In this document: positions 1 to 37,257 of the stretch, one piece after another
Layout: every line of letters begins with the position of its first letter
Position numbering within the stretch: the first letter of the stretch is position 1
DNA from: Viridothelium virens
Lineage: Eukaryota > Ascomycota > Dothideomycetes > Trypetheliales > Trypetheliaceae
Direction of reading: 5' to 3'
NCBI GenBank assembly: GCA_010094025.1
Contig: ML991894.1
Coordinates: 1 to 38,767, forward strand
Length of the DNA: 38,767 nucleotides
Notes under the pieces: generated by a model
What the model saw: the letters and a program-made list of their open reading frames with translations, nothing else
Told to the model about the DNA's origin: nothing
The model's database searches: none
Program-made: the position numbers and the translations under genes

Positions 1-1709
1 TCCCGTCGCTCCACTAACCGTCTTCCCCACATTCCCCGTCGTGTCACCGACCAACTTCCCCGCCGGCCCCCCCACCGTATCCCCCACATTCTTCCCCGCC
101 CCCCCGACCGTCCCTTCAACCCCATCCCCCAGCCCCGACACCGTGGTCCCGACCCCGCGCCCCGCGCCGCCGACTGTATTGCCCACGCCGCCCGCGAGGC
201 CCTTGCCCGTGCCGATGATGTCGCCGCGCGAGGCCGCGCCCGCGGTGTCGGTTGCGGTCTTGCCCAGGTTGCTGATCGCGCCGTCGGTGGTGGACTTGAC
301 GTTTTTGCCTGCGCCGGAGACGGTGCTCGAGGCGCCTTTGACGGCGCCGGTGGCGGGTTTGGTGACGGCGTTTGCGCGGTTACCGGTGGCTTTGTTGAGG
401 CTGCCTGTTGGGTGGGGGAAAGACTCGTTAGCGGATGCTGTTCTGGACGAAGCCGCTAATAAGGCCTGCTAGGGCGTTGCTGAAGGATGGGCTGTTGTTG
501 GGGGAGGGGGCAGCGGTGCTTGTGGCAGGGAGTGGGAAGGTGTGAAGAGGGAGCTGCATCCCGTACGATCGCAGTTTGAGGGCGTATTTGGAGATGAGGG
601 CGAAGAGGAGGGGGTCGGTCAGGAAATCATGCGAGAGGGAGGCAAGGCGGGGGTCGGAGAGACAGGCTTTGAGGAAGGCTGGGAGTGGGAAGATGGCTTA
701 ACGGATGCGTTCCTCAAAGTAGAATCGACAGAGGCAGATAGGGACTTGTGTGGTGGGTCAAGAAAAGGAATTTGAACATACCAGCACCAGCATCGACACC
801 TTTATCCAAAGCCCCTGCTGCTGTTCCCACAGTCTTGTTCACACCTCCAGTTGCTGCACCTGTACCCTTTTGTAATGTTCCCGTCCCGGCGCCCACAGCT
901 TTCTGTGCAGTTGTTGGTGGAGGTTTCTGTTGTGCACCACCCGCAGCTGGTTTCTTGGCTGCTCCTGCCGGAGATGCTCCTCCCACCCCAGTACCTTGCT
1001 TTGCTGCAGCAGGGGCACGGGAAGCGGTATCATTGAGCAGCTTGGAAGCTGCAGCTGGGGAGGCTCCCTCAGCGGCATCTGTTGCACCCTTTGCAGGAGT
1101 TTTCTTAGCGGCCGAGACGGGAGTTTTGGCAGCACCAGCGGCGGGTGTTTTGTTCGCTGCGGTGGGGGTTGCAGGTTTCTTCGCAGCAGATTGTGCTGTT
1201 GCGGGCTTCTTTTCAGAGCTCGTGCCAGTCGGAGGAGTCGAAGGAGTCTTTGGAAGCGATTTCTGCGTTCCAAGAGCAGTTCGAGGTTTCACTGGTGTTT
1301 TTGAGCCTCCGATAGGCAGCTTTGCTGGTCCATTTCCTGATGTTTTGTTTGCTGCTCCTGTCGCAGCTGTTCCTGATGTTGAAGTCTTACTTGTATCTGT
1401 GTTCGCAGGTGCAGCAGGCTTCTTAACCTGACCGACTGGAGTTTTGTTTGCAGTTGCTGCTGGTTTACCGGCTCCAGCCGCTGGTGTCTTATTTGTAGCT
1501 GCCGAAGTAGCTGGCTTCTTAGTACCTACAGGCGTATTGGAAGTCGAAGGTTTGGTGGTGGATGAAGCTGCGGCAGGCTTGGCCGTAGCAGAAGGTGCCG
1601 ACGCGCCTGAAGCGGAAGGCTTTCGAGGACCAAGCTTAGCAGGCTTCGGTCTAGGTGCTGCTGGCGATTCCGTTTGGGGATCGTTGTCTTGCATCTGTAT
1701 GGCAGCCAT
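1..1709 (-). CDS. Lys/Ala/Pro/Thr-rich protein with LEA-like repeats (3' end outside window)
   Basis: The start is the ATG at 1709-1707 (MAAIQMQDNDPQ), in good context (GAAATGGC). Exon 1 (1709-782) encodes about 309 residues of low-complexity sequence built on short Lys-Pro/Thr-Pro-Ala units, with no hydrophobic core and no signal peptide. A GTATGT donor lies at 781-776. The best distal acceptor is CAACAG at 405, with GCTAAC branch site 25-30 nt upstream. It joins in phase 1 to an exon (404 to the window edge) of glycine-rich 11-15-residue repeats such as VGNTVGGAGRGVG and VGKTVSGATG. These resemble group 3 LEA/desiccation-type repeats found in fungal 'LEA domain' proteins. A nearer acceptor at 679 gives a different C-terminus (see 428-678). 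The family call is an inference from composition. It is probably an intrinsically disordered stress-related or structural protein, and the protein continues beyond base 1. Confidence 0.6.
40..420. other. C-to-G skew-switch island 1 (LEA-like gene)
   Basis: Counted on the plus strand, bases 61-120 hold 37 C and 7 G, while 241-300 hold 24 G and 16 C and the stretch beyond is G-rich to about 420. The centre near 200 is CpG-dense. Confidence 0.65.
428..678 (-). other. Alternative terminal exon of the LEA-like gene
   Basis: With the same donor at 781 but the CAG acceptor at 680-679, the frame stays in phase 1 and reads 83 further codons to a TAA at 430-428. The encoded tail is unlike the rest of the protein. 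It is hydrophobic and ordered in character (FLTDPLLFALISKYALKL), then Pro/Ser/Asn-rich. Its stop codon overlaps the GCTAAC branch site of the longer intron. The two splice forms are therefore mutually exclusive, with predicted lengths of 392 residues for this form and at least 444 for the other. That both are used is an inference. Confidence 0.4.
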
Positions 1710-2823: not shown

Positions 2824-2843
2824 GCTATATATAGTGATATAGC
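2824..2843. repeat. Short perfect inverted repeat
   Basis: The arms GCTATAT (2824-2830) and ATATAGC (2837-2843) are perfect inverted copies around a 6-nt loop. The function is unknown. It is AT-rich and could serve as a promoter element or arise by chance. Confidence 0.35.
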
Positions 2844-3861: not shown

Positions 3862-3890
3862 GGGTCACCCATCACCAGAATGGATGACCC
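3862..3890. repeat. Imperfect hairpin
   Basis: GGGTCA (3862-3867) pairs with TGACCC (3885-3890). Inside it CCAT pairs with ATGG, with one mismatch between the blocks. No gene or RNA family was recognised. Confidence 0.3.
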
Positions 3891-4453
3891 CTGTGCCTCA
3901 ATACTACTGTATTATGAATTCTCTTGGCCAAATCGAAATCTTGGAGAGTGAAAACGATCTAGATTATGTTCAAGGCTTCAAGCTGTTTCTGGTATGGAGT
4001 TAACACATGGTGACATTATTGAGCCATTCCCGGGTTTGTTCCCCTGCACGGCTTCCCGAGCAACGTGCTTCCCAATGTCATGGGCTCGTATTTCCATAAG
4101 GTTCAGCCGTGGGCCCCTGACACCATCTAAGACCCGCACGAGTCTAGGGTGGCACGGCTGGAACAAGATGATCATTCCCCGAGGAAGCGATGCTCTTGAG
4201 TCAAGCAGATGTCGCAAGCTGTAATTCGCTGGGAACCCTTGAGCAAATCGTCCGATTGAGGCACACTCTTGCAGGAATCTGCTGCAGTGGGCTACGGAGA
4301 CTGTACCGGTCCCTCGAGGCACTCCGCATGCCTCCCATAATGGTACTTCTACAAGTACTCCGTACTCTGTACTAGTCTCTAGCTTTTCACGACGCACTTC
4401 ACTCATGACCACACGCAAGATGTAGTCTGCAGTGCGCCTTGCGTTCAATCTCC

Positions 4454-11758: not shown

Positions 11759-12024
11759 TCGCGTCGGCGGGGAGGATCATGAGTTATCAGTGGGAGCAGA
11801 AGGGATACTGAGGAAATCGGAGTGGTTGGGAATTCGGCATGCAGCAATGGCGTTCAAATGGGAGACCACTCCAAGAGTTGACGGGATTTTTCTGTACTGC
11901 ACGGATACCTTATATAGTCCAAACAACTCAGTCGTGGAGTTGAAAACTCCATTGGCAATTTTTGTACTTCCGCGTAATCGTAAAGAATTCCACCGCGCCC
12001 TGAATCATACCTTCCTCCTCTAGC

Positions 12025-13098
12025 ATGCGCCCTTCACGCCTCGTCTTCAACTCTAACCAACCTCTACACTTTCTCCGATTCTCCACACGCGGCGCCATCC
12101 CCTCGTTTTCTCAAACCTCCATCCCCCTCCACATCACCCACCGCCCTCCCCACCGGCGTCCACTCTCCCACAACTTCCGCCCACCCTCCCAAAAGATGTC
12201 TTCCACCGCCCCTCCCACCTCCTCCACATCCCGCTCGTCCCCCAGCGAAATCCTCTTCTCCAGCTTCCCCGTCGCCCACCAAGTCTTCCACACCTCGCCA
12301 TCCGGCCTCTCGCACGCCCTCAACAACCTCCGGCCCTTACTCCCCGGCCACACGCTCGTCATCCCGCACCGGACGTCCGCGCGGCACCTTGAGGATCTGA
12401 GCGAGGAGGAGCGGGCCGATATGCTGGCGACGGTGGTGCGGGTGCAGAAGGTGCTGCGGCGGGTGTACTCGTCTGCGGATCCAAGCGAGAGCGGCGGACG
12501 TGGTGGTGGGGATGGTGGTGCTGCGAGGGGGAAGGAGGAGGACGGGGAGGGAGAGGACATAGGAATGAGGGGACAGCAGAGAAGAGAGGCAGAGGAGCGA
12601 GGGGCAGGGAGGGATGGGCAGGAAGCAGGGAGATTACGGCGGAGACAGGCGAGAAGGCCGGCAGGGAAGGTCACGGCGTTCAATGTGGCGATTCAAGATG
12701 GGGTTGCGGCGGGACAGACGGTGCCGCATTTGCATATACATGTAATACCTCGGCGAGACGGAGATCTGGAGCCGTATGGAGGGGGAGATGTCTTGTATGA
12801 GTGGTTGGAGAGTGAAGAAGGGGATTTGAATCAGCAGTACGAAGCTGCTGGGGTGGAAAAGGGGGATGCTCAAGATGGCACAGGTGTAAAGAGAGATGCA
12901 TCTGGAATTGAAGTGTACGAGAAGGGAGCAAGAGATAACGAAGAGAAGGCATCACAGAGGAGGACGGGCAGTTTCACGCCAGAAGCACATCGGAAGAATA
13001 GGAGTACAGCTGACATGCGTGCTGAGGCAGAGTGGCTGGCTCGAGAGATGGCTAGGGAGGAGGAGATGGAGGGAAAGGGATCAAATTCCCGTGCATAG
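12025..13098 (+). CDS. HIT-family bis(5'-adenosyl)-triphosphatase (Fhit/Aph1 type)
   Basis: An intronless frame of 357 aa. The HIT catalytic motif HLHIHV has His235, His237 and His239. It is preceded by AIQDGVAAGQTVP, typical of Fhit/Aph1 Ap3A hydrolases. The nucleotide-fold start (FPVAHQVFHTS, PGHTLVIPHRTSARHLEDLS) lies at about residues 75-130. Residues 1-57 have no Asp or Glu and eight Arg, so they look like a mitochondrial presequence. Met58 (12196) begins a Ser/Thr/Pro stretch and could be a second start giving a cytosolic form. Between about residues 152 and 213 lies a Gly/Glu/Arg-rich insertion that other members lack. It coincides with a G-rich DNA tract and contains no branch site, so it is coding rather than an intron. 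The acidic C-terminal 100 residues are probably disordered. Confidence 0.88.
   Translation: MRPSRLVFNSNQPLHFLRFSTRGAIPSFSQTSIPLHITHRPPHRRPLSHNFRPPSQKMSSTAPPTSSTSRSSPSEILFSSFPVAHQVFHTSPSGLSHALNNLRPLLPGHTLVIPHRTSARHLEDLSEEERADMLATVVRVQKVLRRVYSSADPSESGGRGGGDGGAARGKEEDGEGEDIGMRGQQRREAEERGAGRDGQEAGRLRRRQARRPAGKVTAFNVAIQDGVAAGQTVPHLHIHVIPRRDGDLEPYGGGDVLYEWLESEEGDLNQQYEAAGVEKGDAQDGTGVKRDASGIEVYEKGARDNEEKASQRRTGSFTPEAHRKNRSTADMRAEAEWLAREMAREEEMEGKGSNSRA
12070..12700. other. C-to-G skew-switch island 2 (HIT gene)
   Basis: Bases 12121-12180 hold 36 C and 5 G, while 12541-12600 hold 30 G and 6 C. The centre near 12370 is CpG-dense. Confidence 0.75.
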
Positions 13099-13769
13099 GC
13101 ATTCATTCCCTACCGGTGTCTGAATAAAGCATCATGATCTTTGTAGAAGGGTCTATGATTTTCGCAATGGAGCACCGTAGGTGCAATCTCGCGTGGCATG
13201 ATCATGCAGGATACAGCACTCTCAAAAAGGAACGAGCACTAAAGCAAACAATATTGTCATAGCCGCCGCTCATATCTCAACGATACTCGGCTGTCTTTAC
13301 TGTTGTGTTTCGTGCTCGAAAGCTAAGAATACTGCTGCTCAAAACGAAAGAAACCAAGAAAGTTGGAGATTTTCCAGTACCACCAACGCCATTGCCGTGA
13401 CTGCAAGTAAAGTTGCGTGTGCGTGGTCTCCAAGTGTGGGGTGAAGGAAAACAATTGAAATAACCAAGAGATTTCAAAGAAGAAGCAAACCGCTGTCATT
13501 GAAAAAGAGATTCCGGTTCATTTCATTGTGGAAAGAGTGGAAAAAAACGGTCATTGGATAGGCTCCGCCCAGTCCAAAAGACATCGTATAGGCATGTCTT
13601 CAGACCTCTGCCTCGAATCTCAAGTGTCCGTGAATAGCCCAATCCCTCGCTTGCTGGGACATCCAAAAATCTGCCGTGACCAAAGAAATAGAACCGTCAG
13701 ACAACTGCATATAATCTCCAAACAACGCCCAGAATCGGGAAGAAAAGTGCCGTACTTTGGTGAAGAGCC
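13099..13769. other. Convergent 3' spacer
   Basis: This lies between the 3' ends of the HIT gene (+) and Argonaute (-). No gene or repeat is seen. It would be a zone of overlapping 3' UTRs. Confidence 0.5.
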
Positions 13770-16700
13770 TCAGAGGTAGAACATGGTGTCCTTGAGCTTA
13801 GGATGGATATTAATCTTACTCTTTTGCGCATCTCGTCCTGCACCACTCGTGCCGGACTCAGTTTCAGCAGGCGTGGCCGCCGCAGTGGCATCGTAATAGT
13901 CAACAAGATAGTCTCTTGCACGTTCGCACGCAAGGTCTGCGTAGTAAGCGGCAGGACACAGGCTGACAGCTTTTGTGGCTCGAGCGTAGAGGTATGATAT
14001 CTCGTGTGTGAGCCTCTCAAGCATATCGGCGGGTCTCTCGTTCGTGGGGTTCAATTTCTTGTTACGGAAAATTTCGTCGTAGATAACGCAGTAATGAGCC
14101 GGCCTTGCCGTGCCTTGGATGGCTGCGTGCGGTTGAAGGAAAAAGTCCCAATTACGTGCTTCGGTCACGCCACGATCAACGACTGTACCAGGCTTGGTGT
14201 TCTTGGGTCTGCCCTGGGCGTCCTTTTCATCGGTGACGTAGAACCTGGTATGGTGGCGTTTTCCGACAACTATGACGGAGAAACGTGGGAGACCACGCTT
14301 CTGCAACTCTGCTGGATACATCTCTTTGCATCCTTGCTGCATGCCACAAAGCTCATCATCGATTGTCGCTTGATACTCACCCTCTGAAACGCCATCGCGG
14401 TATACGAGTATATTTTCCGGCAATTTGGCTTTGTTCATCTTCTGCCACAATCGTAGACGTGTCTTGAGCATATTCGCCACCAATTCCTTAATGACTGTCT
14501 CTTGCCTCGACTTTTCTTGTAGGGAGAGTTCTGCAGGCCACTGCCCAAGGTTTGGACCAGTGCTCGCAACCATTGCAACGACACTTGGAGCATCCTCTGA
14601 AGATCCTGGAGAAGGATGAGTGACATCGATTCCGAGTACCATCGTGCTTCCTTGTCGAATCAAGGAGCAATGTTTTGCTTCTAAGGAATGATTGGTCCCA
14701 CCCAACTTTGCGTTCACTTTCAATGCAATGTTTGCGAAGGTGCCAATGTCGTCTTTCATAAGGTTGGAAACTGTCATGCAAACTGTATGGACTCCATATG
14801 TAACATCTCCGAAGGCTTTAATCTTCTTGTAGATCGCGTCTTTCGTGACATCCTTTGTCGGTAGGATGACGATAAGCATCTGAAGTCGTTGACTTTCACA
14901 TTTCCTGAAAACAGACGTGAGCTGGGCTTCGCGAACCGCGGGCTCCAAGTTCCAATTAACGCTTTCTCCCCACCGAGGCTTGGATGCCTGGATTCCACTC
15001 CTGTTCATTGCTCTTTCGAATGATTGAATCTGTGTCAAACAGTCTGCATGTTTTTCGCCAACATTACCTTGTCTTAGAGTCATATATGCCCATTCGCGCA
15101 GGGCAGTACCCTCAGCAAACTGGACACCGTTGAGATTCCAGCCCGCGTCGCGGATATTTTTCGGTTTCGCTTGAGCTCTATAAGTAACCGACGGACCACT
15201 GAGAACCCTTCCCGGTACCGTAATCATGTTCGGGGGATGGTTCGTCTTGATTTTGAATGAAGTTAAGGTTTGATTCAATGGATCCAGTCCAAGCAGTTTA
15301 GGCCCGTTCCGAACAATTGTATTGGCATTGGCAGCAGGACTTCGAATGGAAAAATCTGTCATGTTCTTGGTCTGACTTGGACTGAGCTTCACGCCAGCTG
15401 GTTGACCTGGAATAATGCGGCATAATTCAGGAGGAACATAGACTGGACGTTTATGAGTTCCGACATTGAGGACAGGAGCTGCGCTACATGTATGGTCGTA
15501 GACCTTTTTGAAATAGTCTGCAACAGTGATAAAACTGCCTTGCGGTATTCCTGATTCTTGAGGCGGGTTCTCGATGTAGAATCGCACCTGCTGTGAAGCG
15601 GCGCCCAAAACAGGGACCTTCGGAGGGTTTGAAGAGTCTTTTCCATCTCGAGGAGTAGCTAAGCCGTAGATGGTCTTGATCCTTGTTACTTTCTCGCCAG
15701 ATTTATTCTTTCTTGCGAGATGGATAAGCTCAACCCGCACTCTCGCCAGAAATTTATGCACCTGCGCAGGCGGAAAGTCCTTGCGGCCCCCTGTAAAGTC
15801 CCTGACAACACTGTTGACCGTACCAGGCTTGTACATAGCTGCGTGCTTCACTTGAATGTTGAGGAGGATACGATAAGTAGCAGGTCGGACGCTCACGAAG
15901 AAGCCTCGAAGGCATTCAAGCCCATAGCCAAGGTCTGCTCGCTCGTACAGGTTTCCTGACAGGGCGAAATGCTTGTTTGCTCCGATTGAGGCAATGTCAC
16001 GATCGGATTTCGGACCGTGGCCGACGATAATATTGAGGGTTTGGATTGCTGTGGCTTTCGCTGTCCGGTCGTACAAAACAGCGGTGCTCTGAGAACGGAG
16101 GTAATTAAGGAGTTCAATGATGGAAATGAACACAGGCTTCTCCCCCTTCTCGGAGTCATGTTGAAGGATGACCGTGTATTGTTGGCCAGTCCCATCAGAT
16201 GCGTCTGCGCCATCGTCTCTATATTCAACCGTGTACTTTTGCTTTACGGGTAGATCCTCGAGTGAGATCAAAGTCCGCTTGTAATCCGTAGCCATGCCTC
16301 TACGCTTTTGAGGAAAGTGATCCTCCAAGAAAATATCAATGATCCGTTCAATCTTACGACCTTTAGCCGCCGGGGCAGGCTTTACCGGAGCGATTTCAAA
16401 TTGATATTTGCGAAGCGTCAAATCTTCCGAAACCTGGAGAGGGAAGTAATTGGCCCACAGTTTCACCTTTGACCCTTCTTGACCGTACCCAGGCCGGTCC
16501 GGAAATTCCTTTCCCAGCTTACTCTGGTTGTCTTTGACGTACTGTTCCAGATTGTTTCCCACTTTGTTTTCTGTCTGGTGAACTTGTTGATCGAAATCTG
16601 GGGCTCTGCCAGTCGCCCCCACAAACACTGAAGATTGTCCACCTTGTTGCTGTGGTCGGGAGCGATATGGTACGCCTGCTTGGGCTCCAGGAGGAGGCTG

Positions 16701-18704: not shown

Positions 18705-18747
18705 AAGCAGGCTTCAAGTTCAAGCTCTATTCAAGAATGTACCGTTC

Positions 18748-22537: not shown

Positions 22538-23983
22538 ATGGCAGCATACATCCCAACCATAGCCCCAAACCTAGGAGCGTTGAACGCTTCCCCATTTCTG
22601 CCGGTTCCACATTTACCTAACATTGTTGCTGAGTGGGCTGCAATCATTCCACTGGTTTGTCACCTTGCTAGCTACAAGCAAGACTATCAGCTCTTAGGAC
22701 ACATCGCATTGACTGGACGAATCGAGATTGACTTGCTTCCACGACTGGGAGTGCTGGCAGGTATAGCTCGTCTGCTTAGGAAGGGCCCAGAGTTTATTGA
22801 TGAGGCAAGCTCCAAGGGATACTCGCACCGGAGAGTTTGGGATGTAAAGTGGGGAGGCACGTTTCCTGCCGCGAATGGAGCGGCCAGCGCCATCATCGCG
22901 AGATATGCGCTGGAGAACAAGCTCAGGGCAACAATTAAGATGCCCGACAAGATTCCAGATGCACCCGGAAAGGCGGTGCGACATCAGTCTGCAGAGCCAA
23001 AGCAATCTGCGGACATCACTGGCTTTGAGCCTAGAGCGAATACCTTCGTGAGTTCAACGTCAGTGGAATCCAAGCCGACAAAATCCAAACAAACGACACA
23101 GCACCGAAGATATCAGACCCTACATGTCCTGCGATTCTACCGCAAGAATTCAAGATATTCCTGGCTCTATCGACTGGATACTATACTTGCATCGGTAGCC
23201 ACTGAAGCACTTGTCCTTATTCTGATGCTTGGCATATCAGTGACCTTGATGCTTTTTGGCTGCTTTGGAACGTCAGTAGCGTTACTCTGCGGGTCTTTTT
23301 CGCAAATAGCGTGCAGAGGCTTCAGTTTAGTAAGGCCTCCCGGCTATCTCCAAAGCAACGAGGAAGACGATCAAAGCTGCATGCTGTATAGTATACATCA
23401 GAATGCGTCCATTTGGTATCTATTCATCGGCGACCGAGGTGTAGTCGACACTTTGCTGAACAAGACCATGGTGGCTTTGCCCGAGAAGTCTCACCGTCGT
23501 GGACTGTCTACTTTTCTCTCCCTCGCTCATGCTCTACAACTCCTTGCCATGACGTATGTGGCGGCGCAGAAAGGATGGGACGGTTTAGCTCTTGTGGTTT
23601 TCATGGTCATCAATGCTGTCTGGAGATGGAGGCATTGCGACACCCTTGCATGCAAGCGCTGGCTTGAATCGGGAGGTATTAATATCGAAGCCAAATCCTT
23701 TGAGTTCACAGGCCGAACCATGATGTTAGGCGCTATACAGGCATTCAGTGGCGGCACTAGAATGGACTGGATGGACGAAATTATCACTCCGCATCCAAGA
23801 CGTGATGCCTGGCTAAGCCGACTCCACCGCCTGGAGGGGGTGGGTCAGGAAAAGACAGATTCCGAAGGCGAAATCGCAAGGTGGACGGCACACGATTGGG
23901 AATACATCCGACGCAGTTCAGGCTTAAGTTTCGCCGCAGCGTCTGTCCTCAAGTCAGAGATGCGTCACACAGTGGAGCCATGA
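22538..23983 (+). CDS. Uncharacterised fungal multi-pass membrane protein
   Basis: An intronless frame of 481 aa from the ATG at 22538. The N-terminal 150 residues are soluble or membrane-associated and include a conserved-looking LLPRLGVLAGIARLLRKGPEF helix and RRVWDVKWGGTFP. A basic, Ser/Thr-rich linker (about 140-195) follows. Strong hydrophobic segments lie at about 222-253, 325-343 and 349-364. The C-terminal 115 residues are soluble and end with a Trp/Arg-rich region. I recognise no catalytic motif. It starts head-to-head with the HET gene, an arrangement that suggests it is an accessory partner of that locus. The function is unknown. Confidence 0.7.
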   Translation: MAAYIPTIAPNLGALNASPFLPVPHLPNIVAEWAAIIPLVCHLASYKQDYQLLGHIALTGRIEIDLLPRLGVLAGIARLLRKGPEFIDEASSKGYSHRRVWDVKWGGTFPAANGAASAIIARYALENKLRATIKMPDKIPDAPGKAVRHQSAEPKQSADITGFEPRANTFVSSTSVESKPTKSKQTTQHRRYQTLHVLRFYRKNSRYSWLYRLDTILASVATEALVLILMLGISVTLMLFGCFGTSVALLCGSFSQIACRGFSLVRPPGYLQSNEEDDQSCMLYSIHQNASIWYLFIGDRGVVDTLLNKTMVALPEKSHRRGLSTFLSLAHALQLLAMTYVAAQKGWDGLALVVFMVINAVWRWRHCDTLACKRWLESGGINIEAKSFEFTGRTMMLGAIQAFSGGTRMDWMDEIITPHPRRDAWLSRLHRLEGVGQEKTDSEGEIARWTAHDWEYIRRSSGLSFAAASVLKSEMRHTVEP

Positions 23984-24706: not shown

Positions 24707-26012
24707 ATGGCGCCTGCTCTTATCGCCGACGATACTGAAAATCAGGTAGTAGCCAAAACAAATGGCAGTAGCGACACTGCTGGCGTGACACCGCTGCAAG
24801 CTATTTCACAAGGCGTTTGTCTTCCTGGAATTCCTACCTTTAACACTTTTGAGAAACAACGGCAATGGATGCTCGAGCACATGGCTGGAGCTTTCCGCGT
24901 ATTTGCTCGCAAGGGCTACACTGAGGGTATGAGCGGCCATATCTCAGTGAGAGATCCTGAATGGAGCGAAGGTGAGCTCTTTCTTGTTCGATCATCTCCT
25001 GGGTGGCAGTACTTCTAGCCCGCCAATGACTGCACATGTCCGTCACCATACTTGAATCCAAGGGTCTCTTTCTTTGATCATATTGGCAAATTGGCTTCGA
25101 AAAACAAGGCAGCTGTGGTGGGCATAAATCGAGCGTTTCGGTTCTCGCCAGCGCGTTCAGCAAGTTTCCAGCCTCTTGTCCTATGTTACTCGTCATCCAG
25201 TCGTGGCTTTATCTGGAATCCAACGAACACCTGCGTTTCTTCAATTCGGCACGTTTACCCTTTGTCTGAAAATCGATCATTTTTTGACTCCATTTGACGC
25301 ATATTCCTTCATACCCCTACACTTGACTCCAACTTCCCCAATATAGACCTCAATATCTAACACCCAATCCCTCCCCACAGCCTTCTGGACCAACCCCCTA
25401 GGCCGCCACTTCGGCCTCCTCCGCGCCTCCGACATGATCCTCGTCAACTACGACGGCACGCCCATCGGCGGCAACCGCAGCCGGCCCGCCAACGCCGCCG
25501 GCTTCCTGATCCACAGCGCGATCCACCAAGCCCGGCCAGACGTCATTGCAGCGTGCCACACACACTCGGTCTTCGGCAAAGCGTGGTCGAGCTTCGGACG
25601 CCCGCTCGAGATGCTGAACCAGGATATCGCGTACCTGTATGGCGACGCGCAGGCGGTGTACAATGAGTTTGGAGGGGTGGTGCTGGGGGAGCAGGGGAAG
25701 GAGGAGGCGCGCAGGATGGCGGAGGCGTTGGGGCCCAGGGGGAAGGGGATGGTGCTGTTGAATCATGGGTTGTTGACGGTGGGGGGTACGGTGGATGAGG
25801 CGGCGTTTTTGCATTGTTTGATGGAGAGGGCGTGTGAGGTGCAATTGCAGGTAGAGGCGGCGGCGGCGAATGGGTTGGAGAAGAAGCTGATTAGTGATAA
25901 AGATGCGAAGTTTACGTTCGATTTGACGAGCGATCCGGAGACGTTGTATTGGGAGTTTCAGCCAGATTTGGATTACGAAGATGAGATGTGTGGAGGAGCT
26001 TTTCGGAAATGA
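24707..26012 (+). CDS. Class II aldolase/adducin-domain protein
   Basis: Exon 1 (24707-24971) and exon 2 (25381-26012) join in phase 1 to give 298 aa. The intron is 409 nt, long for this window, with a GTGAGC donor and a CCCCACAG acceptor. The fold starts with a helix (QRQWMLEHMAGAFRVFARKG) and the sequence TEGMSGHISVRDPE. It continues with the metal-site region (PDVIAACHTHSVFGKAW), whose His-x-His pair plus a later His (LLNHGLLTVGG) matches the zinc ligands of class II aldolases. A conserved Glu region (LYGDAQAVYNEFGG) lies between them. Family members act on phosphorylated sugars or serve as adducin-like scaffolds; the fungal paralogue's substrate is not known. Exon 2 shows the C-rich to G-rich switch described in the findings, centred near 25640. 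Confidence 0.88.
25381..25920. other. C-to-G skew-switch island 3 (aldolase-like gene)
   Basis: Bases 25381-25440 hold 30 C and 11 G, while 25681-25740 hold 35 G and 10 C. The centre is near 25600-25640. Confidence 0.75.
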
Positions 26013-27354
26013 GCCTGATCGTGGTTGCGATGAAATAGGTAAAAGAAACCCTCAATATGCCCTTATGAACAAACCTACTTTGATCTTTCAGCTTGGCAGG
26101 AAAAGATTGAGCAGACAATCTGGCATCACTTCACCCAATTTTTTACTTAATGTTTGTAGTTTAAAGTTGGGGTCGGTGCTAATCAATCCGAACAGTCTTA
26201 ATGCCTGATTGATATAGAGACGAGGTTGGTGATTTACAACCCTTAGTTTCGCTCAGTCACTGTCCAACCATAATGAATCAACCTCGCCAGAATTTATGAA
26301 AGATGTCTGGTGAATTTTCATTCCTATGGTCTACCATCGACCACAATAAACCTGTGATGAGAAGATGCCCCCTTTGTGTATCTGCTGACTCAGGTCGTAG
26401 TCTGATTATTGCCCACGACTACCCTTGCTCAATAGAGCGTCCAGAACTGCTCCGGGACAGAAGTGACGCCTTTTGTAGTGACGCAACTCGCCAAATGAAC
26501 TTGGTTCTACCAGATAGGCAAGGAAGTGAAACAACAGCAGTCCAATTTAGTCTACCTCCCAGTACATGGTAAGGCACTTCAAGAGCAATATAAATGCTCA
26601 AACTAATCCATTTTACTCGGACTGTCAGTGACAGGCAATTCTTTTCATCCCATAGATAGACTTCAGTAGCTTGCTAGAATCAGGTCAATGCCACTGCTGA
26701 AGCTTTCTTCATCATCATTCCGGTTCGAAAGCAGAGTCGGGATCCGCTTAATTCTCCCATTGAATGTGACCCAATTCGATACTCTATTTCTTGTCTAGGA
26801 CATCGAGTGTGACGGGTCAGTTCTGTCCCATGAATATCTTGGAATTCTTAATATCAGGCATCCAAAGGAAGATCGGGCAAAATGTGTCCATTTCTCAACT
26901 GAAGAAATAGCGTTCTCCGTCTTTCCTGTTCAAAGCCAGGATCCAAGGAGACTTACAATTGGTACGAACTACGAATGGAGGCAAACAGCGGCGAAGTGTG
27001 GACAGGTGAGCCGAGGACAAGCCATCTCCAGGTTTTCAGCCCTAAGCCGCAACGCCACATCCCTGACTCCAGACATGACCACGTTTGTACATATTTCAGG
27101 ATAGCCTCAATCCATACAACTCCTTCTCTGGGCCTTGAATTAGGTTTCCTTTCCATCACTACAGCCTAGTGCTGAGGATATTACTTCCTGGTGGATTTGG
27201 CCCAATTGCGCTCGACTGGTCACCCTTGGATCCCAGTTGTGCCCAGTGCATGAAAAGAATGCAGCGGCTACCCAGGCCCGTACGATAGCAGACCCCAATG
27301 TTGGAATGAGGGAATTGGGAGGCAAAATACTAGTTTTGTACCATCCGCCTTGAC
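26013..27354. other. 1.3-kb intergenic region, no supported gene
   Basis: This contains the 3' flank of the aldolase-like gene and the promoter of the GH47-like gene. The longest open frame (26303-26572, 89 aa) has no domain and an ordinary composition, so I do not call it. Confidence 0.5.
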
Positions 27355-29097
27355 ATGCCCTCTTTTCGACGCCATCCGGTTACGGCATTCAAGCTCTTTA
27401 GTGCGGCTTTCATCATCTGCTTCTACCTCATTTATGCCTCGTTCCGAGACTACTTCAGTCCTCCTCCAAAGATCGATCGCATTGAAATAGCAAGCCTGCA
27501 ATACGAAGGATGGCGAGGCGGGGGCAAGGCAGATCTAGGGAAGGCAGGTATCATCCGCGATGCCATGCGAAAGGCTTTCGCAAGCTATCAAGACAGAGCG
27601 TGGGGAAAGGATGAAATCAGGCCTATCAGCGGGGGCAATGTGAACAATCATAACGGATGGGGAGCATTCTTGGTTGAAAGCACATCAACTCTGGCGCTCA
27701 TGGGATTGTGGGACGAGTTGCGTGAGGCAGTGCGGTATATCATTGACAAAGTCGACTTCACGAAGACAGACGAGCTTGTGGACCCCTCAGAAACAATCAG
27801 AAGATACCTGGGCGCCATTTTGTCTCTTGTGGATATGTCTGATGCTGGTCTTATATCTCCCGAAGTCATTGCCCATGATGACCGCAACAAGCTTCTAGGC
27901 CAGGCGTACACACTCGCTTTCAAGCTTCGTCCCTCTTTCGACACAAATACTGGACTCCCGTGGCCGCGCGTCGACTTTGATACCTCCGTCGGCACATCTC
28001 TATTCACTCCCAAAGACGGAAACCCAGAGGAAGAGAACATAGTAACCATTCCCCTCTCTTCAGCCAGCGCCCCACTCCTCGAATCTCGTGTTCTTTCCCG
28101 CCTCACGAACGATGCCTCATACCTAGAAGACGCAACATACGCCATCGTACCGCTCCTCTGGCCCAGCTACAACCTTTCCGCTCTCCCCAACCACCCAGAC
28201 GGCCTCTTCCCCTCACCTCTCAACATCGACACCTCCCACCCCACCGCCCAAGGGTACAGCTGGGACACCAACCACCTCCCCTTCTACACCGCCCTCCTCA
28301 AATCCCTGCTCCTCTCCCCCCACTCCCGCCACGCCCCCACCTACCGCACCACCTGGCTCTCCGCGACACACGCCCTCCGCTGGAACCTGACCTCGCGCTC
28401 CGCCGCATCCCCCACCCACGCAACCTCGCACCTCTACCTCTCCCAGCGTTCCGGCCCACACCTCCTAAACGAAGCCTCGCACACTTCCTGCGCCGCGCCG
28501 GCCTCCCTCCTCCTCGGCGGCGCAGCTTTATCGCGACCCGACCTCATCGGTCTCGGGCAAGCCCTCCTCGAAGGCTGCCACCATGTCCACGCGTCCTCGC
28601 CATCGGGTCTCGCGCCCGATCGTTGGTCCTGGACGCCCGCGGGCTCGGAGCGCGGCGACCCGGCGTTCGAGCCCAGTACGAAGCGCGCGGCGAGGCAGTG
28701 GGAGCTGCGTGCGTGGTGGGCGGTGGAGGAGCGTGGCGGGTTGCGCGCGGGCTATGTCGAGAGTCTGTTTGTGGCGTGGCGGGTGACGGGGCAGGCGCGG
28801 TATCGGCAGTGGGCGTGGGAGGCGTGGGAGGCGGTGCGCGCGCGGCAAGAGGCGCGGTATGGGTTTGCGGCGTTGAAGGATGTGATGAGGGGGAAGGCGA
28901 CGAGTAGTGAGCTGGGGGTGGTGGAGCAGGCGATGAAGCAGGCGGGGGTGGAATTGGTGGATGAGCAGGAGACGGAGTGGATGAGTCGGACGTTGAAATT
29001 TTTGTGGTTGCTGTTTGGAGATGTGAAGGTGGCGGATTTGGATATGTGGGTGATAAGTGAGGGAGGCCATTTGTTTAGGAGGACAGAACCGGGCTAA
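27355..29097 (+). CDS. Divergent GH47 class I alpha-mannosidase-like type II membrane protein
   Basis: An intronless frame of 580 aa. A short cytosolic tail precedes one membrane anchor (about residues 11-28, KLFSAAFIICFYLIYASF), so the catalytic part would face the ER/Golgi lumen. GH47 landmarks are present in order: GWGAFLVESTSTLALMGLWDE, PSETIRRYLGAILSL, LLGQAYTLAFKLRPSFDTNTGLPWP, LRAGYVESLFVAWRVTG, RTLKFLWLLFGD and a final WVISEGGHL. The family's end motif is usually NTEAHP with a calcium-binding Thr. Here the Thr position is Ser and an extra Gly is present. The usual ETLKY is RTLKF, so one conserved Glu is replaced by Arg. The enzyme may be altered or inactive, as in some EDEM-like proteins. 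The second half has a strong C-rich to G-rich composition switch. Confidence 0.8.
   Translation: MPSFRRHPVTAFKLFSAAFIICFYLIYASFRDYFSPPPKIDRIEIASLQYEGWRGGGKADLGKAGIIRDAMRKAFASYQDRAWGKDEIRPISGGNVNNHNGWGAFLVESTSTLALMGLWDELREAVRYIIDKVDFTKTDELVDPSETIRRYLGAILSLVDMSDAGLISPEVIAHDDRNKLLGQAYTLAFKLRPSFDTNTGLPWPRVDFDTSVGTSLFTPKDGNPEEENIVTIPLSSASAPLLESRVLSRLTNDASYLEDATYAIVPLLWPSYNLSALPNHPDGLFPSPLNIDTSHPTAQGYSWDTNHLPFYTALLKSLLLSPHSRHAPTYRTTWLSATHALRWNLTSRSAASPTHATSHLYLSQRSGPHLLNEASHTSCAAPASLLLGGAALSRPDLIGLGQALLEGCHHVHASSPSGLAPDRWSWTPAGSERGDPAFEPSTKRAARQWELRAWWAVEERGGLRAGYVESLFVAWRVTGQARYRQWAWEAWEAVRARQEARYGFAALKDVMRGKATSSELGVVEQAMKQAGVELVDEQETEWMSRTLKFLWLLFGDVKVADLDMWVISEGGHLFRRTEPG
28040..28990. other. 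C-to-G skew-switch island 4 (GH47-like gene)
   Basis: Bases 28261-28320 hold 33 C and 5 G, while 28801-28860 hold 32 G and 12 C. The centre near 28600 is CpG-dense. Confidence 0.75.
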
Positions 29098-29442
29098 GAT
29101 GGTGCTTTGGGCGACGCTGAAAGGCCCATTTATAACAGATCTCTAGTGGGCATGTGTGTGAGCATAGATGGTGCGGCATGTGGCGGAACTGTCGAGACAA
29201 GATGTGGCATAAATCCTTTCCATGATGGGTGTTCTGCTGGACTGTCTGAGCAGGCATTGCGCATTTGCGCAGATGTTTGCCACGACCGCTTTCACACTGG
29301 TGCGTTCTAGTAAATTTGTAGCATATCTGTAAATAGTATGGCGTTTTAGATTTTAGTATTTCAATTTACAGCATTTTACACAGTAATCTCGAAGCAAGGG
29401 TGGTCACTCCTAAAATGAGTCTGCTCTTGAGGTGGTCTCCAC
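29098..29442. other. Convergent 3' spacer
   Basis: 345 nt between the stop codons of the GH47-like gene and the cyclophilin. AT-rich toward 29310-29390; nothing else seen. Confidence 0.5.
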
Positions 29443-31027: not shown

Positions 31028-32495
31028 ATGAAGAAATCATTCGCCGCAAAGCGCACTCCGCGCAAGATTGGACGCGACGACGATGATGCACCAATTAACA
31101 GCAGCGAAGATGCTCCCAAAGCTCCAAGTAAGTAGCTCATTACCATGCTATCTCCTCACGTCTCTTTCTGACATGAGACTGAACAGACGCTGATTGCTCG
31201 GCGCAGATTCTGAACCCATCGTAAGACGTCCTGGTCTCTCCTCAAAACCTAAGAAAGGCTCTTCCCTACGCCTGTCCTTTGGACCCGATACCAAATCCAC
31301 CGAACCCAGTCAGGACGACTCAGACGACGTCTTCGCGCCCAAAAAATCCCACCTGAACCGCGTCACCCAAGACTCCAAGCCCCACCCCCTACGCGCCTCC
31401 CTCTCCACCGACCGCCTCCCCTTCCGCGCCAACACCCCCTCCGACCAACCCAGTTACTCAGCCTCCTACCTCACCGAACTCCGCAAGTCCACCCCCAGCC
31501 GCCCCGCACCCTCCTCATCCTCCGCCGCCACACCCTCCGACCCCACCACCACGAGCCCCCGCGCCCTCGACATCGCGTCTAAATTCGGGCTCTCCGCCAG
31601 CAGCGCCCTCGCCACCAGCCACCCCTCGATTCCAACCGACGGCGAGATCCGCGAGAAGAAAGCGCGCCGGGCGCGTCTCGCGCAGGAGCAGCGCGCCGAG
31701 GAGTACATCGGGCTGAGCGCATCGGGGTCGTCGGCATCGGGCTCCGCATCCGACGAAGAAGAAGACTCCGATGGCAACGTCGTGAAGCGCTTCACGCCTG
31801 GCTCTCGCTCTCGTTCTCGTCGGAGGAAGCCGGAGTCGCGGCTGCAGCGGGAGGACGAGGATATCGCGGAGGGGTATGATGAGCTTGTGGAGGATGGGAG
31901 GGTGGCGTTGGGGAGGAGGGCGGAGAGGGAGGAGAAGGTGAGGAGGCGGCGGGAGATGGCGGAGAGGATACGGGAGGCGGAGGGTGGAGGGGTGGTGGGG
32001 GGTGGTGATGGGGAGGAGAGTGCGGAGGGAGAGAGGGATGAGGAGGAGGCGACGCGGCATGCGGCGTACGAGGCGGCTCAGACGGCTGCGGGGGCGTACG
32101 GAGTACCGGGAACGTCGTCGTCGTTGCGGCGGAGAGAGGAGCGGGCGGCGATGGAGAGATTGAAGGGGCCGAAGAAGATGACGGCGGTGCCGGAGTTGGG
32201 GACTGTGCTGGCGAAGTTGAGAGAGGAGGTGCAGAGGAAAGAGTATGCACGGATGATGAAGGCGAGAGAATTAGAGGAGTTGAAGAAGGAGCAGGGGGAG
32301 ATTGCGGTGGAGGAGGTCAGGATACAGCAGGAGCTGAAGGAGGCGGGTAGACGGTATGAGGAATTGAAGGCAGAGGCAGGGATACAGAGACAAGCTAATG
32401 GGTCTGGAGGTACGGAGATGGTCAAAGTAGAACGAGGTCTCGAAAGCTTTGGATCCATGCCTATGGCGGTGGATGGCGATTCAAGTGATGAGTAG
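31028..32495 (+). CDS. NTR2: Nineteen complex-related protein 2 (Ntr2) domain protein
   Basis: Exon 1 (31028-31127) and exon 2 (31207-32495) join in phase 1 to give 462 aa. The N-terminus is basic (MKKSFAAKRTPRKIGRDDDD). The Ntr2 signature appears at about residues 110-130 (SYSASYLTELRKSTPS), followed by a Pro/Ser-rich linker. A conserved IPTDGEIREKKARRARLA helix comes next. The long C-terminal part is coiled coil (LGTVLAKLREEVQRKEY, ELEELKKEQGEIAVEE). Known role: Ntr2 with Ntr1 recruits the helicase Prp43 to release the excised intron lariat and take spliceosomes apart. The middle holds Gly/Glu-rich low complexity (GGGVVGGGDGEES), produced by a G-rich DNA tract. It is divergent from the cyclophilin and convergent with Erv46. 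Confidence 0.85.
31300..32340. other. C-to-G skew-switch island 5 (Ntr2 gene)
   Basis: Bases 31381-31440 hold 39 C and 6 G, while 31921-31980 hold 36 G and 6 C. The centre is near 31650. Confidence 0.75.
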
Positions 32496-32679: not shown

Positions 32680-34187
32680 TCAACTGCTGTGTATCTTCCG
32701 TACTCTCTGTACACCTTCATACAAAGCGCGGTCGACTGCTGCAGCGACGGTCAAAGTACCTCCAACAACGGCACAGACGCCAACGAGGAAACCAGTGAAG
32801 CTCTTGGCGCGAGCTTCGCGATTGATGACTTTCATTGGCGAGATGTCCTAAACATTGTCAACATATGATTCTCTTCAGACGGGGATAGGACGAGATAGGG
32901 ACAATGAGAAAGCACTTACGTAAGAAAAGAACACTCCAGGAATGCCCCCGCGAGCATGCAACCGTTCCTTGTGGCCCTCGTTCGCATCACTGCCGCCTGT
33001 CAGGCTACGCTTGTGGCTCGTTACTGAGTACTGATGCGTCTCAATGCTTCCAGATTCGCTCTTGCCATAGCTACCGAGCTCAGCCAGGTCAGGGCGAACA
33101 TCGAGGAGGTTGCTGCCAAGGTTCTTGGAGTCCCAACCGAGAGGGAGATACGCCGTTGACACAACTTTCACAAAGTACATGTAATTGTATGCCTGCTCAG
33201 TAGTACTCTGTTCGTGACCATCGAGCGGATTTCCGTGGTGATTGCTCCACGCCCACCCCCTTCTCTTCACTACTGCATCAGGAAGCTCGGGACCAAATCT
33301 TAGTTCATGGATCTTATGAGTGAACGTATGGCCCCCCTCGACTGGGCTTTCGAAATAATTTTTCAAGTCATGTACATGTACATTGCCGTTGCTGAAACTC
33401 TTGCCTGGTGCGAAATGAAAGTTACCGATAACTTTGTTGACACGAATGCCGCCTTCGATTCGGCACCCTTCGTTGCGCTGGGCGTCAAGCTGTTCGCCGT
33501 AATGCTCCCGTTCGCATTGCTCGACGTTCTCGCCCCGACCAAATGACCAGGATTTCCCAGCGTAAGCGTCGCGGACTTCATCACAGGTATTGCAACAGCC
33601 GGGTTTTTTGACAGTGGACGGGACCGGGGCACCGTAGCAATCACCACAGTACTCGGGATCAAGATGGACAGTATCTTCGGTAGGGTGTCTTGCGCTGGGT
33701 CAGCCATTTCATCTTCTTTACGATCCGACTGTCCCCCAAGCTGCAATTCGAGAATACACGTTGAGGACCCTGCTTGTATGAAATTTATGAAAGTGAAACG
33801 AGTATCCACTTACAGTTCCAAGTCCTTAATCTCTAATACCCTTCCCCCCTCCCTCTCATTCGACAGCCTCACCTTCTTCACTCCATGCATTACGCCACTC
33901 TGTACCTCTCCACTCACATCCATAACATCTAGCGTCAATAGCTCACATGGTAAGCGCGGGAATGTGATGTTCATATGTATCTCCATCTTCTCCCCTCTCC
34001 CTTTGTCCACCACCAACTCCGGCTTGACAACAATGCGTCGGTAGTCGCTCCACTCACTCCACATCAAGAACAGAATCACCAGTAGAGAGGTGATGGTGAC
34101 GACACCGCCGGAGGTAGTCCGCACGCGAGCATCTTCAACGGTCTTGGTGAAGGCGTCAAGGCGCGTGAAACGAGATTTGGGGGGCAT
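32680..34187 (-). CDS. ERV46: Erv46, COPII vesicle cargo-receptor subunit
   Basis: Three exons: 34187-33814, 33694-32920 and 32847-32680. Phases 2 and 0 agree and give 438 aa. The N-terminus has FTRLDAFTKTVEDARVRTTSGG followed by membrane segment 1 (VTITSLLVILFLMW, about residues 30-45). The lumenal domain holds the Cys motifs HLDPEYCGDCYGA and GCCNTCDEVRDAY, then IGNFHFAPGKSF and LDGHEQSTTEQAYNYMYF. The second membrane segment (TGFLVGVCAVVGGTLTVAAAVD) is near the C-terminus. Known role: with Erv41 it cycles between ER and Golgi, retrieving ER-resident glycoproteins and packing cargo into COPII vesicles. The C-terminus ends in KIHSS rather than a classical KKxx signal. The first intron's acceptor (CCCAG at 33699-33695) is inferred from frame and family alignment. 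Confidence 0.93.
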
Positions 34188-34956
34188 GTTGGCGGAGGAT
34201 TGATGCAGGTGTAGGATCGAAAGGTAGCAAAATTCTCGTCAGATTCTTCAGTGCCGAATTGGGGGAGAAGAGAAGGTAGAAAATCCGGCTGGAATACGAT
34301 ATTAGCCGTCAATGAGGGAGCGGATGAAAGAGCTCGAGCTGGAAACTTTCAGAACGGGAGCTTTCCCCGTGCAAAAACCGCACGACTGCAAATAAAGAGA
34401 TAATGAAAGATTGGTCAATTAAGACATATCATCGCTTCTCATGATACCTTGGAGCCGGTACCTGGATTGGCAGGGCAGAGGAGTGGTAGGAATATTTGCT
34501 GGTAAGCTACAGAGGCTACCCGGAGAAAAAGGCCACCTCCACAATCTCGAAGCTCACCGCCCGGGCTAGCGCAGGTACCCTGGACCATAATAATCGTAAT
34601 CATCCCATAACCCAACACCGGCAGCAGGTAATGACAGAATGCGCATACGGATTAGTGGAAATACGTCTCAGTGGCGGAATGAGGGAATTTCAAGATTTCT
34701 ATCTTGTCCCAATCATATGACTATGACACCTCAAGAATATCTACTCCTGCGCCATAATCGGAGGCATACCAGCTTCCAAAATCCGTCAATACCCAAGATA
34801 TTCGCTCGGCGACGGCCAAACACAATTGACCTTGACCACGATGGTGTAAACGATCGTTCATGACTGCATCTATCCCGCTGTTCTGTAGGATATCATATCC
34901 AACCACCCACTGAATCCATCCGACATCGGAGCCTTCCACATCAGCAGCACCAAGCC
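34188..34956. other. Intergenic region
   Basis: This is the 5' flank of Erv46 and the 3' flank of the TamA-like gene, both minus-strand. No gene is supported. Confidence 0.5.
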
Positions 34957-37257
34957 CTACAGATCATCGTCCGGAAACCCCATAAACCCCGGCCCAGACG
35001 GATACCTCCCCAAAGCCTCCGCCCCCACCTCACCCACTTCGCCAGCCTCATCCCCCATCCCCATCCCCATCCCCATCCCTACCCCCAACCCCTCCCCCAC
35101 CCCTCCCTCGCCCTCCTCCGGCACCCCCGCCTCACTCGTCCTCGGCTGCTGCCCCAACCACGGCTTCTCGGCCAAATTCCTCAAGAGGCCACGACTCGCA
35201 TCCAGCATGCGGACCGCATACCCCAAGAACTCAGCGCGCCTCGAGCTAACACTCAGGGTCCAGCGGTACTCGCGCAGGCGCATGCGATAGAAGTCTGCCT
35301 CCTCCTGGGTGGGCGCCGTGGCCCAAAGGAGGGAGCCGAAGGTGCCGATGAGGGTGAAGTTGACTTTCGAGGCGAAGTACCAGAAGGCCTGCAGGTGCGA
35401 GGGGCGGAGGCGGTTGACGAAGTCCATGGCGGAGATGAGGCGGGTTTTGGCGGCGGAGCGGCAGATGTAGAAGAGGTAGGGGTCGGAGGTGGTGGGGGAG
35501 AGGGACTGGATGATGCGGCGGTGGAGGGTGATTTCGGTGGCGAAGTAGCCGAGGTGGAGGTAGCCTAGATGGGGGTGTTAGGAGGAAGGGAGAAAGGGAG
35601 ATAGGTGCACGGGGGAAAAAGAAGTACGACTTGCCTGTCATGGAAAGCTGCTGGTTATCAGTGGTGTCCATCCGCGCATTTGCGGGGAGCCGAGCAAACC
35701 ACTCTTTGAGCTTGATTTGAACGGGCTTGGCTCTCTCGAGGATCAATCTGGTCGCGTTTGGGCCTGCATCATCGAAGTCTGAGATGGCCGCCTGTGTGTA
35801 GAAGGTGTCCATCACTTCAGCCATTATTGAAGTGAGAGCAATCATCTGATTAAAGACTTCTTGGCCTTGTTCAGCGCTAATTCGCTCCTCTTCAGTTGGC
35901 AGTATCGCTTGAGATCCCGCGATTGGATTTTCCGCAAAATCGTCGTCGGTCAGGGGTTTTACGGCCCAATTGGCGTCAAATATATGCGAGGGACGACCGT
36001 GGATTAAAGAACTCCATTTATCTTGCATGTAGAGGGCCCACGCGATCCTTTTCCGCAGTCCTCGTTCCCAGGCCGGTATCTGCCAACGAGAGCAGTCAAG
36101 ATGCAGACCCAGTTCCTGACCGACTGCAACAAGCTGAGTCGTGAGACTCCAAAGATCGGCATCAGGCCTCTGCAATAATAGAAGACCAGCCTGCATTGTC
36201 GACAATTTTGGCTGCTTCATAGTATTCATCAGAGAACGTGAGGCGATTTCTTCCAGCCTGGCAGAATCTGGCTTTGACTGGCTGGCTAGCTTCTCCTCGA
36301 ATGACCACCAATTCAGGGCCAGTAGATAGATACCCGCAAGCAGCGCGGGATTGTACTGACGATCATTATTTTGGTATCGGTCGAGGAAGACCTGTTTTTG
36401 GATAATGGGAAAACTAGGGTGAACTATCCGGAAATATATGTCAATCAAGGCAGATCCATGGGGCGCGACAGTCTGTTCGACGGTATTGAGTGCCTCAGCT
36501 TCATCATACGACGATTGAGTGGTATCATCAGAATACATAATGAAGCACTCATGTTCATCAACCTTGCGGAGAGTGCCAAAGTCTACTTTGCTCTCGTTAC
36601 GACCGTCAAACTGGGATAGATCCAGCAAGGAGTGGTCGTAAGCAGAGCTCAGCCCAATGTGTCGGCAATGCCGCCCTCTCTGGAGGCTTAGAGTTTCGCC
36701 TAATAGAGTTGGGCTTGGGGTGAGTAGTAAGGGGTGGACCTCTTCTTCTTGCTTTACTTGGGTGGGGGCAATTTCTCTTGGGCTTTTCTGAGGTGGGGGT
36801 CTGTCAAAGTCAGTGAGCCATTAAAATTTCTAGCAAAAAATGACTTTCGACAAATTGACAAGTTGCTTACCTTTTCTTCACACTATCGCCCGAGATCTCG
36901 TTGTTTAACTTTCGTTTACGAGGGAGGGGGCTCTGCACAAAAGTACAATCTTGCTTATGAAACTCGCACAGTACACATAGGACTTTTCCTTCATGAATAA
37001 CGCAACGTGATTTTCTCCTTCGGCAAGCGTCGCCTATCGCAAAAACGTAAGCTGGTAGGGCGTTAGATAAGAGAAGATAGAGATATACATGGTCGTTCCC
37101 TGCGGCTTCTTATGTTCGCTACGGCGGCAGCTGAAGTCTTGGATTGGGGAATGTTTTCTTTCCCGGTCATTACATGAGGACTTTCCGTCTGCGAAGCGAC
37201 TGTAGGCAGAGGCGCCAAACGAGGTAGGACTGGTTTCATGGCAAGAAGCGCCGTCAT
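34957..37257 (-). CDS. tamA: Zn2Cys6 transcriptional activator of TamA/DAL81 type
   Basis: Four exons (37257-37089, 37033-36871, 36800-35635, 35564-34957) give 701 aa with all phases consistent. The zinc cluster is complete: Cys57, Cys60, Cys67, Cys76, Cys79, Cys86, spacing 2-6-8-2-6, with CDACRRRKSRC. Intron 1 splits the first Cys codon (T from exon 1, GC from exon 2). A basic stretch (PLPRKRKL) follows. Then come the conserved TLLGETLSLQRG and RHIGLSSAYDHSLLDLSQF, typical of TamA/Dal81. The fungal transcription factor domain starts near IDIYFRIVHPSFPIIQK and includes QELGLHLDCSRWQIPAWERGLRKR. Known role of the family: co-activator of nitrogen-source (GABA, urea, allantoin, amino acid) utilisation genes. 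Intron 3 is a GC-AG intron (AG|GCAAGT donor, CATCTAG acceptor). The C-terminus carries a Gly-Met repeat. Confidence 0.9.
34990..35560. other. C-to-G skew-switch island 6 (TamA-like gene)
   Basis: Bases 35041-35100 hold 40 C and 2 G, while 35461-35520 hold 33 G and 5 C. The centre is near 35250-35300. The gene is on the minus strand, yet the plus-strand order is the same as in the plus-strand genes. Confidence 0.75.
35049..35080. repeat. Hexanucleotide CATCCC repeat in the TamA-like C-terminus
   Basis: Roughly five CATCCC units encode alternating Gly-Met on the minus strand. It lies in the G-rich (coding strand) arm of the composition switch and is likely length-variable between strains. Confidence 0.7.

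Follow-up and report, generated by a model that had tools for sequence, protein, structure and literature searches.

Why should DNA inside a gene be rich in C up to a point and rich in G beyond it, and why should this recur six times along one short contig? The question is raised by contig ML991894.1 of the ascomycete Viridothelium virens (GenBank assembly GCA_010094025.1), whose full 38,767 nucleotides (nt) are hereafter called the window; it is a complete contig (C124 in our numbering) of a 30.7-Mb assembly with 175 contigs. An earlier note described six GC-rich islands there, each with a C-rich left arm and a G-rich right arm, and named a replication start or a recurrent meiotic break as candidate causes. 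A break with biased repair accounts better for what we find, and we infer, with slightly better than even confidence, that each island is the trace left over time by meiotic double-strand breaks at a stable site within a gene.

The pattern has one polarity and is not confined to the window. We added 280 kb from the same assembly (200 kb of contig C1 and 40 kb each of C60 and C30), which brought the scanned DNA to 318,767 bases on four contigs, ∼1% of the assembly. The switch filter was D, i.e. (G minus C right of a point) minus (G minus C left of it), and an island was called where 200-nt arms gave D ≥ 0.18 at GC ≥ 0.60. GC-rich switches run from C to G in 22 cases and from G to C in none (sign test P = 5e-7); beyond the window alone the count is 16/16 (P = 3e-5), and all four contigs carry islands. 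C-to-G switches outnumber G-to-C switches in 36/36 combinations of arm length, threshold and GC, the ratio ranging from 54:35 under the most permissive one to 12:0. Low-GC peaks (GC < 0.56) show no C-to-G excess (11 C-to-G versus 16 G-to-C in 278,767 bases). Extrapolation gives ∼2,100 islands per genome, or ∼1,750 if the island-rich window is excluded.

In the window, a 100-nt composition table displays all six islands of the earlier note, whose centres (∼200, 12370, 25640, 28600, 31650 and 35270) were refined as follows:

Island 1, 1..700: C arm ∼1–200, centre ∼208, G arm to ∼700; truncated by the contig start, centre outside any gene model.
Island 2, 12001..13100: C arm 12001–12400, centre 12388, G arm to ∼13100; in a HIT-domain gene, 12025–13098, plus strand.
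Island 3, 25301..25900: centre 25607; in a class II aldolase/adducin-domain gene, model 25434–26572, plus strand.
Island 4, 28101..29100: C arm 28101–28600, centre 28679, G arm to ∼29100; in a GH47 gene, 27355–29097, plus strand, 580 amino acids.
Island 5, 31301..32400: C arm 31301–31600, centre 31637, G arm 31801–32400; in an NTR2 gene, open reading frame (ORF) 31194–32495, plus strand.
Island 6, 34901..35600: C arm 34901–35200, centre 35254, G arm 35301–35600; in a short minus-strand model, 34957–35427, at the end of a Fungal_trans-domain ORF, 35246–36820, minus strand (TamA in the earlier note, an untested label).

The best 60-nt samples equal or surpass the counts first reported, with 40 C/6 G left and 42 G/2 C right in Ntr2, and 43 C/1 G left and 36 G/4 C right in the TamA-labelled ORF. 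No GC-rich switch was found in five other ORFs of the window (DUF5703-like, Argonaute, heterokaryon incompatibility (HET), ORF 22517–23983 and the Erv46 ORF 32875–33699), where D reaches at most 0.02–0.12 and 400-nt GC at most 0.53–0.57. The claim that Argonaute, HET and Erv46 lack a switch thus holds for GC-rich switches, but the longer Erv46 gene model (32875–34187) contains a low-GC C-to-G switch at 34080 (D 0.23, GC 0.52), which is perhaps a weak or young island under the GC threshold. A C-rich run precedes it in 33801–34080 (42 C/7 G in 33801–33900). The 3–4-kb spacing reported for the right-hand islands is local, the window being island-rich (6 seen versus 2.2 expected from the remaining DNA, P = 0.026).

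Islands lie mostly within genes. Gene models came from a purpose-written small dynamic-programming finder and are approximate (150 genes; 240 introns with a median of 66.5 nt and GTAAGT and GTATGT as commonest donors). Island centres fall within these models in 20/22 cases, the exceptions being 208 in the window and C1 56236, and one of the 20 is in a predicted intron. The host models (14 plus, 6 minus) place the centres 173–9,618 nt of coding sequence (CDS) downstream of the predicted ATG. Among the 19 ORFs assigned to islands, 16 match Pfam above cut-off, one only below it and two not at all (the Csf1 ORF was represented by its last 827 residues); the matches include MCM, Csf1, SNF2, Med21, NTR2, GH47, P450, NUDIX and Hikeshi. 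The Csf1 host, at C1 32583–42482, stays open over 3,300 codons and carries the Csf1 C-terminal domain; its island lies ∼330 nt ahead of the stop.

The location in genes agrees with a rival explanation that we consider very improbable, namely selection on codons, amino acids or mRNA structure. Amino-acid order does contribute: 200 synonymous shuffles of each of 118 of the 150 predicted CDS (≥ 420 nt, no N) still gave a C-to-G switch in a mean of 6.5 CDS (maximum 9). The real sequences have one in 19 (G-to-C: 1 versus a mean of 0.7), and 18 of these 19 beat all 200 of their own shuffles, the remaining one being matched by 6/200. The possibility that such switches are no commoner than in shuffled synonymous codons, which the earlier note had raised against its own pattern, is contradicted in these CDS. 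Selection on coding sequence is also at odds with the skew seen outside it. At 250–400 nt from the centre, introns (0.41, 372 bases) and intergenic DNA (0.42, 2,251 bases) are about as skewed as CDS (0.43) on the outward strand, the one that leads away from the centre. The intergenic class contains both islands that lack a gene model, and close to the centre these make up most of it. Downstream of the stop codons of 18 islands the skew is 0.43 at 150–300 nt (392 bases) and 0.22 at 300–450 nt (1,330 bases), despite a lower GC there; introns and intergenic DNA likewise have lower GC than CDS beyond 250 nt. As for mRNA structure, C arms match their own G arm with a mean local score of 29.2, hardly above the 26.4 against the G arms of other islands (standard deviations 7.9 and 6.1), and a hairpin between the arms was rejected. 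The skew is a DNA-level pattern.

We then resolved the silent sites by distance, fitting a three-parameter model of potentials relative to A on the outward strand. The C, G and T potentials are 1.49, 1.71 and 0.39 at 0–60 nt from the centre, 0.78, 2.24 and 0.41 at 60–150 nt, 0.28, 2.02 and 0.58 at 150–250 nt, −0.41, 1.58 and 0.14 at 250–400 nt, −0.52, 0.93 and 0.06 at 400–550 nt, −0.28, 0.16 and −0.01 at 550–750 nt, and −0.30, −0.10 and −0.17 at 750–1000 nt, where the skew is gone. C and G are therefore both favoured in the core, irrespective of strand, and G alone farther out. In the arms at 150–400 nt, bootstrapping over islands gives G 1.77 (1.35 to 2.21) and C −0.08 (−0.40 to 0.23). A strand-blind model (C = G) is rejected at 60–550 nt (difference in Akaike information criterion (dAIC) 203–467) and nearly holds within 60 nt (dAIC 8.7). 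The centre is CpG-rich as claimed, but only near the level expected from its high C and G (observed/expected 1.12–1.16). Whether the switch is abrupt lies below the resolution of the data, ∼120 nt; centres set without the middle 60 nt per side leave C and G about equal there.

Two-fold degenerate sites over 19 islands give the same picture. The ratios C/(C+T) and G/(A+G) are 0.50 and 0.51 at 800–1500 nt upstream; at 200–350 nt, the values are 0.26 and 0.89 in the 3′ arm, and 0.80 and 0.40 in the 5′ arm. In 8/8 four-fold families the commonest third base is G in the 3′ arm (0.43–0.82) and C in the 5′ arm (0.49–0.73), with the lowest values for Ser and Gly (3′ arm) and for Pro and Ala (5′ arm). 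G or C is also the commonest third base ahead of each following base. Since all eight families share the preference, context modulates it and does not set it.

The short range of the skew bears on replication origins with leading-strand skew, to which we give almost no credence. Their sign is right, as leading strands would be G-rich outward. However, the skew has vanished by 750–1000 nt and is 0.00 in CDS beyond 1 kb from the centres (146,865 bases), and replication is unlikely because this is too short-ranged. Replication forks run for kilobases. Bacterial leading strands are G-rich and, less so, T-rich in the available part of the source (PMC3174206), a pattern that fits the arms worse.

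Does transcription set the polarity? It had been argued that the C-left, G-right order is the same on the plus strand whichever strand the gene is on. This observation is uninformative: the order is its own reverse complement, so any coding strand passes from C-rich to G-rich, plus and minus genes are bound to agree, and the question needs another test. Such a test is the strength of the arms. Fitted at 150–550 nt, the potentials are C −0.51, G 1.57 and T 0.32 for arms whose outward strand is coding, and C −0.14, G 1.40 and T 0.09 for the others. The two mirror arms are thus nearly equal in strength regardless of gene direction. Together with the near-neutral core and the equal skew in non-coding DNA, they fit the proposal of a bidirectional process starting at the centre. 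Moreover, in 57 island-free genes (CDS ≥ 900 nt) silent-site composition is almost flat, so that a gene's own transcription leaves almost no skew; G increases mildly in them over the 150 nt that precede the stop (G/(A+G) 0.61 versus 0.49–0.54 elsewhere), perhaps owing to weak islands.

These results make divergent transcription from an internal start improbable in our judgement. In that explanation, R-loop or repair asymmetry makes each non-template strand G-rich, as at mammalian CpG-island promoters, whose GC skew is known as SkewR. The likeness in form is considerable, with a GC- and CpG-rich centre and a G-rich strand running outward, i.e. downstream of the promoter. Human first exons combine a divergence of G from C with little A/T asymmetry, according to the available part of that work (PMC11323403), and a near-zero A/T skew is therefore compatible with transcription. 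Nevertheless, in the same part of the work the sequence upstream of the human start is mostly symmetric, whereas each island has a full mirror arm and one of its arms opposes the direction of the gene. CpG-island promoters sit at gene starts, and the 20 centres inside gene models may or may not mark internal starts.

The required process starts near a point, runs in both directions over several hundred bases, affects coding and non-coding DNA, and treats the two strands unequally. Meiotic break repair qualifies. The assembly contains a match to TP6A_N (Spo11) at 54.4 bits (cut-off 26), as a genome with meiotic break machinery should. TIGR02238 (DMC1) matches three pieces at 226, 174 and 38 bits, and DMC1 and RAD51 are not told apart because all three fall under the cut-off. 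Conversion tracts measure 0.5–1 kb, a size that the arm length of several hundred nt per side fits.

We propose the following sequence of events: (i) Spo11-type breaks would recur near the island centre; (ii) the ends would be resected, and heteroduplex would form between the 3′-ended (recipient) strand and donor DNA; (iii) mismatch resolution would be biased by base and strand, C and not G being kept on the recipient 3′-ended strand, which amounts to G kept on the outward strand; (iv) near the break, the tracts of both sides would overlap and look like ordinary strand-blind GC bias; (v) farther out, one rule alone would act and yield C-left/G-right; and (vi) with time, the bias would also shift amino acids. 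Since the 3′-ended strand is the recipient on each side, the keep-C-not-G rule would produce the observed order. A related possibility is that mismatches with C are converted less readily than those with G; C:C is repaired poorly in yeast.

The islands resemble the footprint of GC-biased conversion at long-lived hotspots in that GC is raised around the centres at silent and non-coding sites and fades over hundreds of bases. Ordinary GC-biased conversion treats G and C alike, while the islands do so in their core only and favour outward G in their arms. Because strand-blindness fails, they are best read as a strand-polar variant of biased gene conversion rather than an ordinary member. A stronger form of this view, which is possible although we lean against it, is that islands are fossil heteroduplexes: ∼1,750–2,100 stable intragenic break sites per genome (extrapolated) would each record the strand polarity of biased mismatch repair, and GC-biased conversion itself would act on one base of one strand, keeping C on the recipient 3′-ended strand, and would seem strand-blind only where tracts overlap. 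A precedent exists in the available parts of Li et al. 2019 (PMC6715734), where a strand-aware, GC-restoring repair of the recipient base, maybe G or C but not both, is proposed for mouse non-crossovers, and where the molecular mechanism of non-crossover GC bias is called unresolved. That pathway shares with our reading a bias set by the recipient-strand base, including the G-only or C-only option. It was drawn from pedigree conversions, with no composition footprint in those parts, whereas the islands are known here from composition alone.

Alternatively, breaks would occur at the centres, but the skew would arise through new mutations, introduced during repair synthesis or on exposed single strands, and conversion bias would add only the GC-rich core. 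We regard this as unlikely, though it has a clear counterpart: at human break hotspots, mutations are strand-asymmetric in the flanking 2 kb around a strand-neutral core of ∼100 bp (Hinch et al. 2023, PMC7615360, from its available parts), and the slight excess of T over A in our inner arms would suit a mutational origin. However, the human mutations are C>N and A>N on the forward strand, which is the single strand left of the break (side inferred from the legend). According to the available text and legend, the sign for C is thus opposite and A is affected too; mutation of this type would remove C and A from the forward strand on the left, where the island arms are C-rich. A transition-type (G+T) asymmetry was also rejected, as it fits worse than the model with C and G free at 60–750 nt (dAIC 8.6–104), and the preference is broad across sequence contexts.

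Protein comparisons suggest that the proposed break sites are long-lived. Codon positions 1 and 2 shift in the arms as well, and the claim that the shift is mainly synonymous is therefore only partly right. We computed a protein index, the right-minus-left difference in expected G minus C at codon positions 1 and 2, as z among homologues (best 120 of 693 for Ntr2, 110 of 110 less four distant or partial ones for GH47, and best 120 of 7,990 for MCM3). The Ntr2 ORF is 83% identical to its Trypethelium subeluteriae homologue; the closest matches listed include Bathelium mastoideum and Bogoriella megaspora for both GH47 and MCM3, and Trypethelium for MCM3. These homologues put the fungus close to Trypethelium, Bathelium and Bogoriella, which have a lichen habit (family Trypetheliaceae). 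For Ntr2, z is 4.9 in the window, 5.9 in Trypethelium and 4.5 in Bathelium, all above the 116 other scored homologues, and 2.2 in a further relative, which ranks 4. For GH47, z is 3.3 in the window (rank 2 of 102), 2.6 in Bathelium and 2.0 in Bogoriella. Ntr2 and GH47 are thus outliers among their homologues. The signature in two relatives for each protein suggests long-lived sites, and that of Ntr2 suggests an island predating the Trypethelium/Bathelium split; the differing values suggest that islands differ between relatives. Amino-acid changes in three window proteins, sorted by nucleotide type, appear to run in the expected direction, although the counts are small: A>G 11 and G>A 2 in the 3′ arm; A>G 10, G>A 13, T>C 5 and C>T 2 in the 5′ arm; A>G 15 and G>A 13 outside the arms. 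In one relative, the Ntr2 (P0003) and GH47 (P0122) homologues may be linked as in the window, both being listed with a longest contig of 88,018 bases.

Several observations weigh against recurrent breaks with one-base conversion. First, 21/34 GC maxima have D ≥ 0.18 and the other 13 lack a switch, two of these lying in an arm of a called island. Second, the silent sites depart from the one-base rule: T exceeds A at 150–400 nt (0.34, bootstrap 0.11 to 0.55), which it does not predict, C is disfavoured rather than neutral at 400–750 nt (−0.38, −0.61 to −0.13), and the core (0–60 nt) is nominally best fitted by a G+T-type model (dAIC 3.9 over the C,G-free model). Third, the protein signature is uneven, being absent from the GH47 of the relative with the possible linkage (z 0.1) and weak at most in MCM3 (window z 1.8, rank 11 of 114; seven relatives 0.4–1.9). 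Finally, break sites in budding yeast lie mostly in promoters, not within genes.

If conversion bias with a strand rule is the true cause, the silent sites of a genome would reveal where breaks fall, how long the tracts are and which strand is preferred; the mechanism could then be tested from sequence data alone wherever break sites are long-lived, and the strand rule of GC-biased repair could be read from a genome. The islands would also exemplify a non-adaptive process that alters the amino acids of conserved genes, and would caution against taking local intragenic GC skew as a sign of replication or transcription. We did not find the pattern described before among the literature matches listed, which cover subscription journals little; in the available parts of the gerbil papers, ‘GC skew’ means raised GC.

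Within genes, the relative position of the 20 gene-linked centres does not depart from uniform (Kolmogorov–Smirnov P 0.41), and convergent neighbours are no commoner than among genes at large (12/20 islands versus 84/145 genes). The distance from centre to stop has a median of 416 nt (P 0.044) and is less spread than under random placement within the same CDS (P 0.0008), and in genes > 1,500 nt the centre is in the last quarter in 7/9 (P 0.0013). Placement at gene ends was nevertheless dropped as a rule, as the 1,500-nt cut was chosen post hoc, the models are home-made and the GC threshold penalizes centres beside gene ends. Word counts, made without a motif program, gave no motif for the centres; the words in excess there are rich in CpG, as expected from the composition.

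Three further features of the window deserve mention. The Argonaute gene (13770–16823) encodes N, L1, PAZ, L2 and Piwi domains in a single open frame and is free of skew. The HET-domain ORF (18748–20586) is barely over the Pfam cut-off (22.7 versus 22.5 bits). An isolated C-rich run occupies 38001–38100 (50 C/7 G), with a G-to-C edge at 38000 and no G-rich partner before the contig end.

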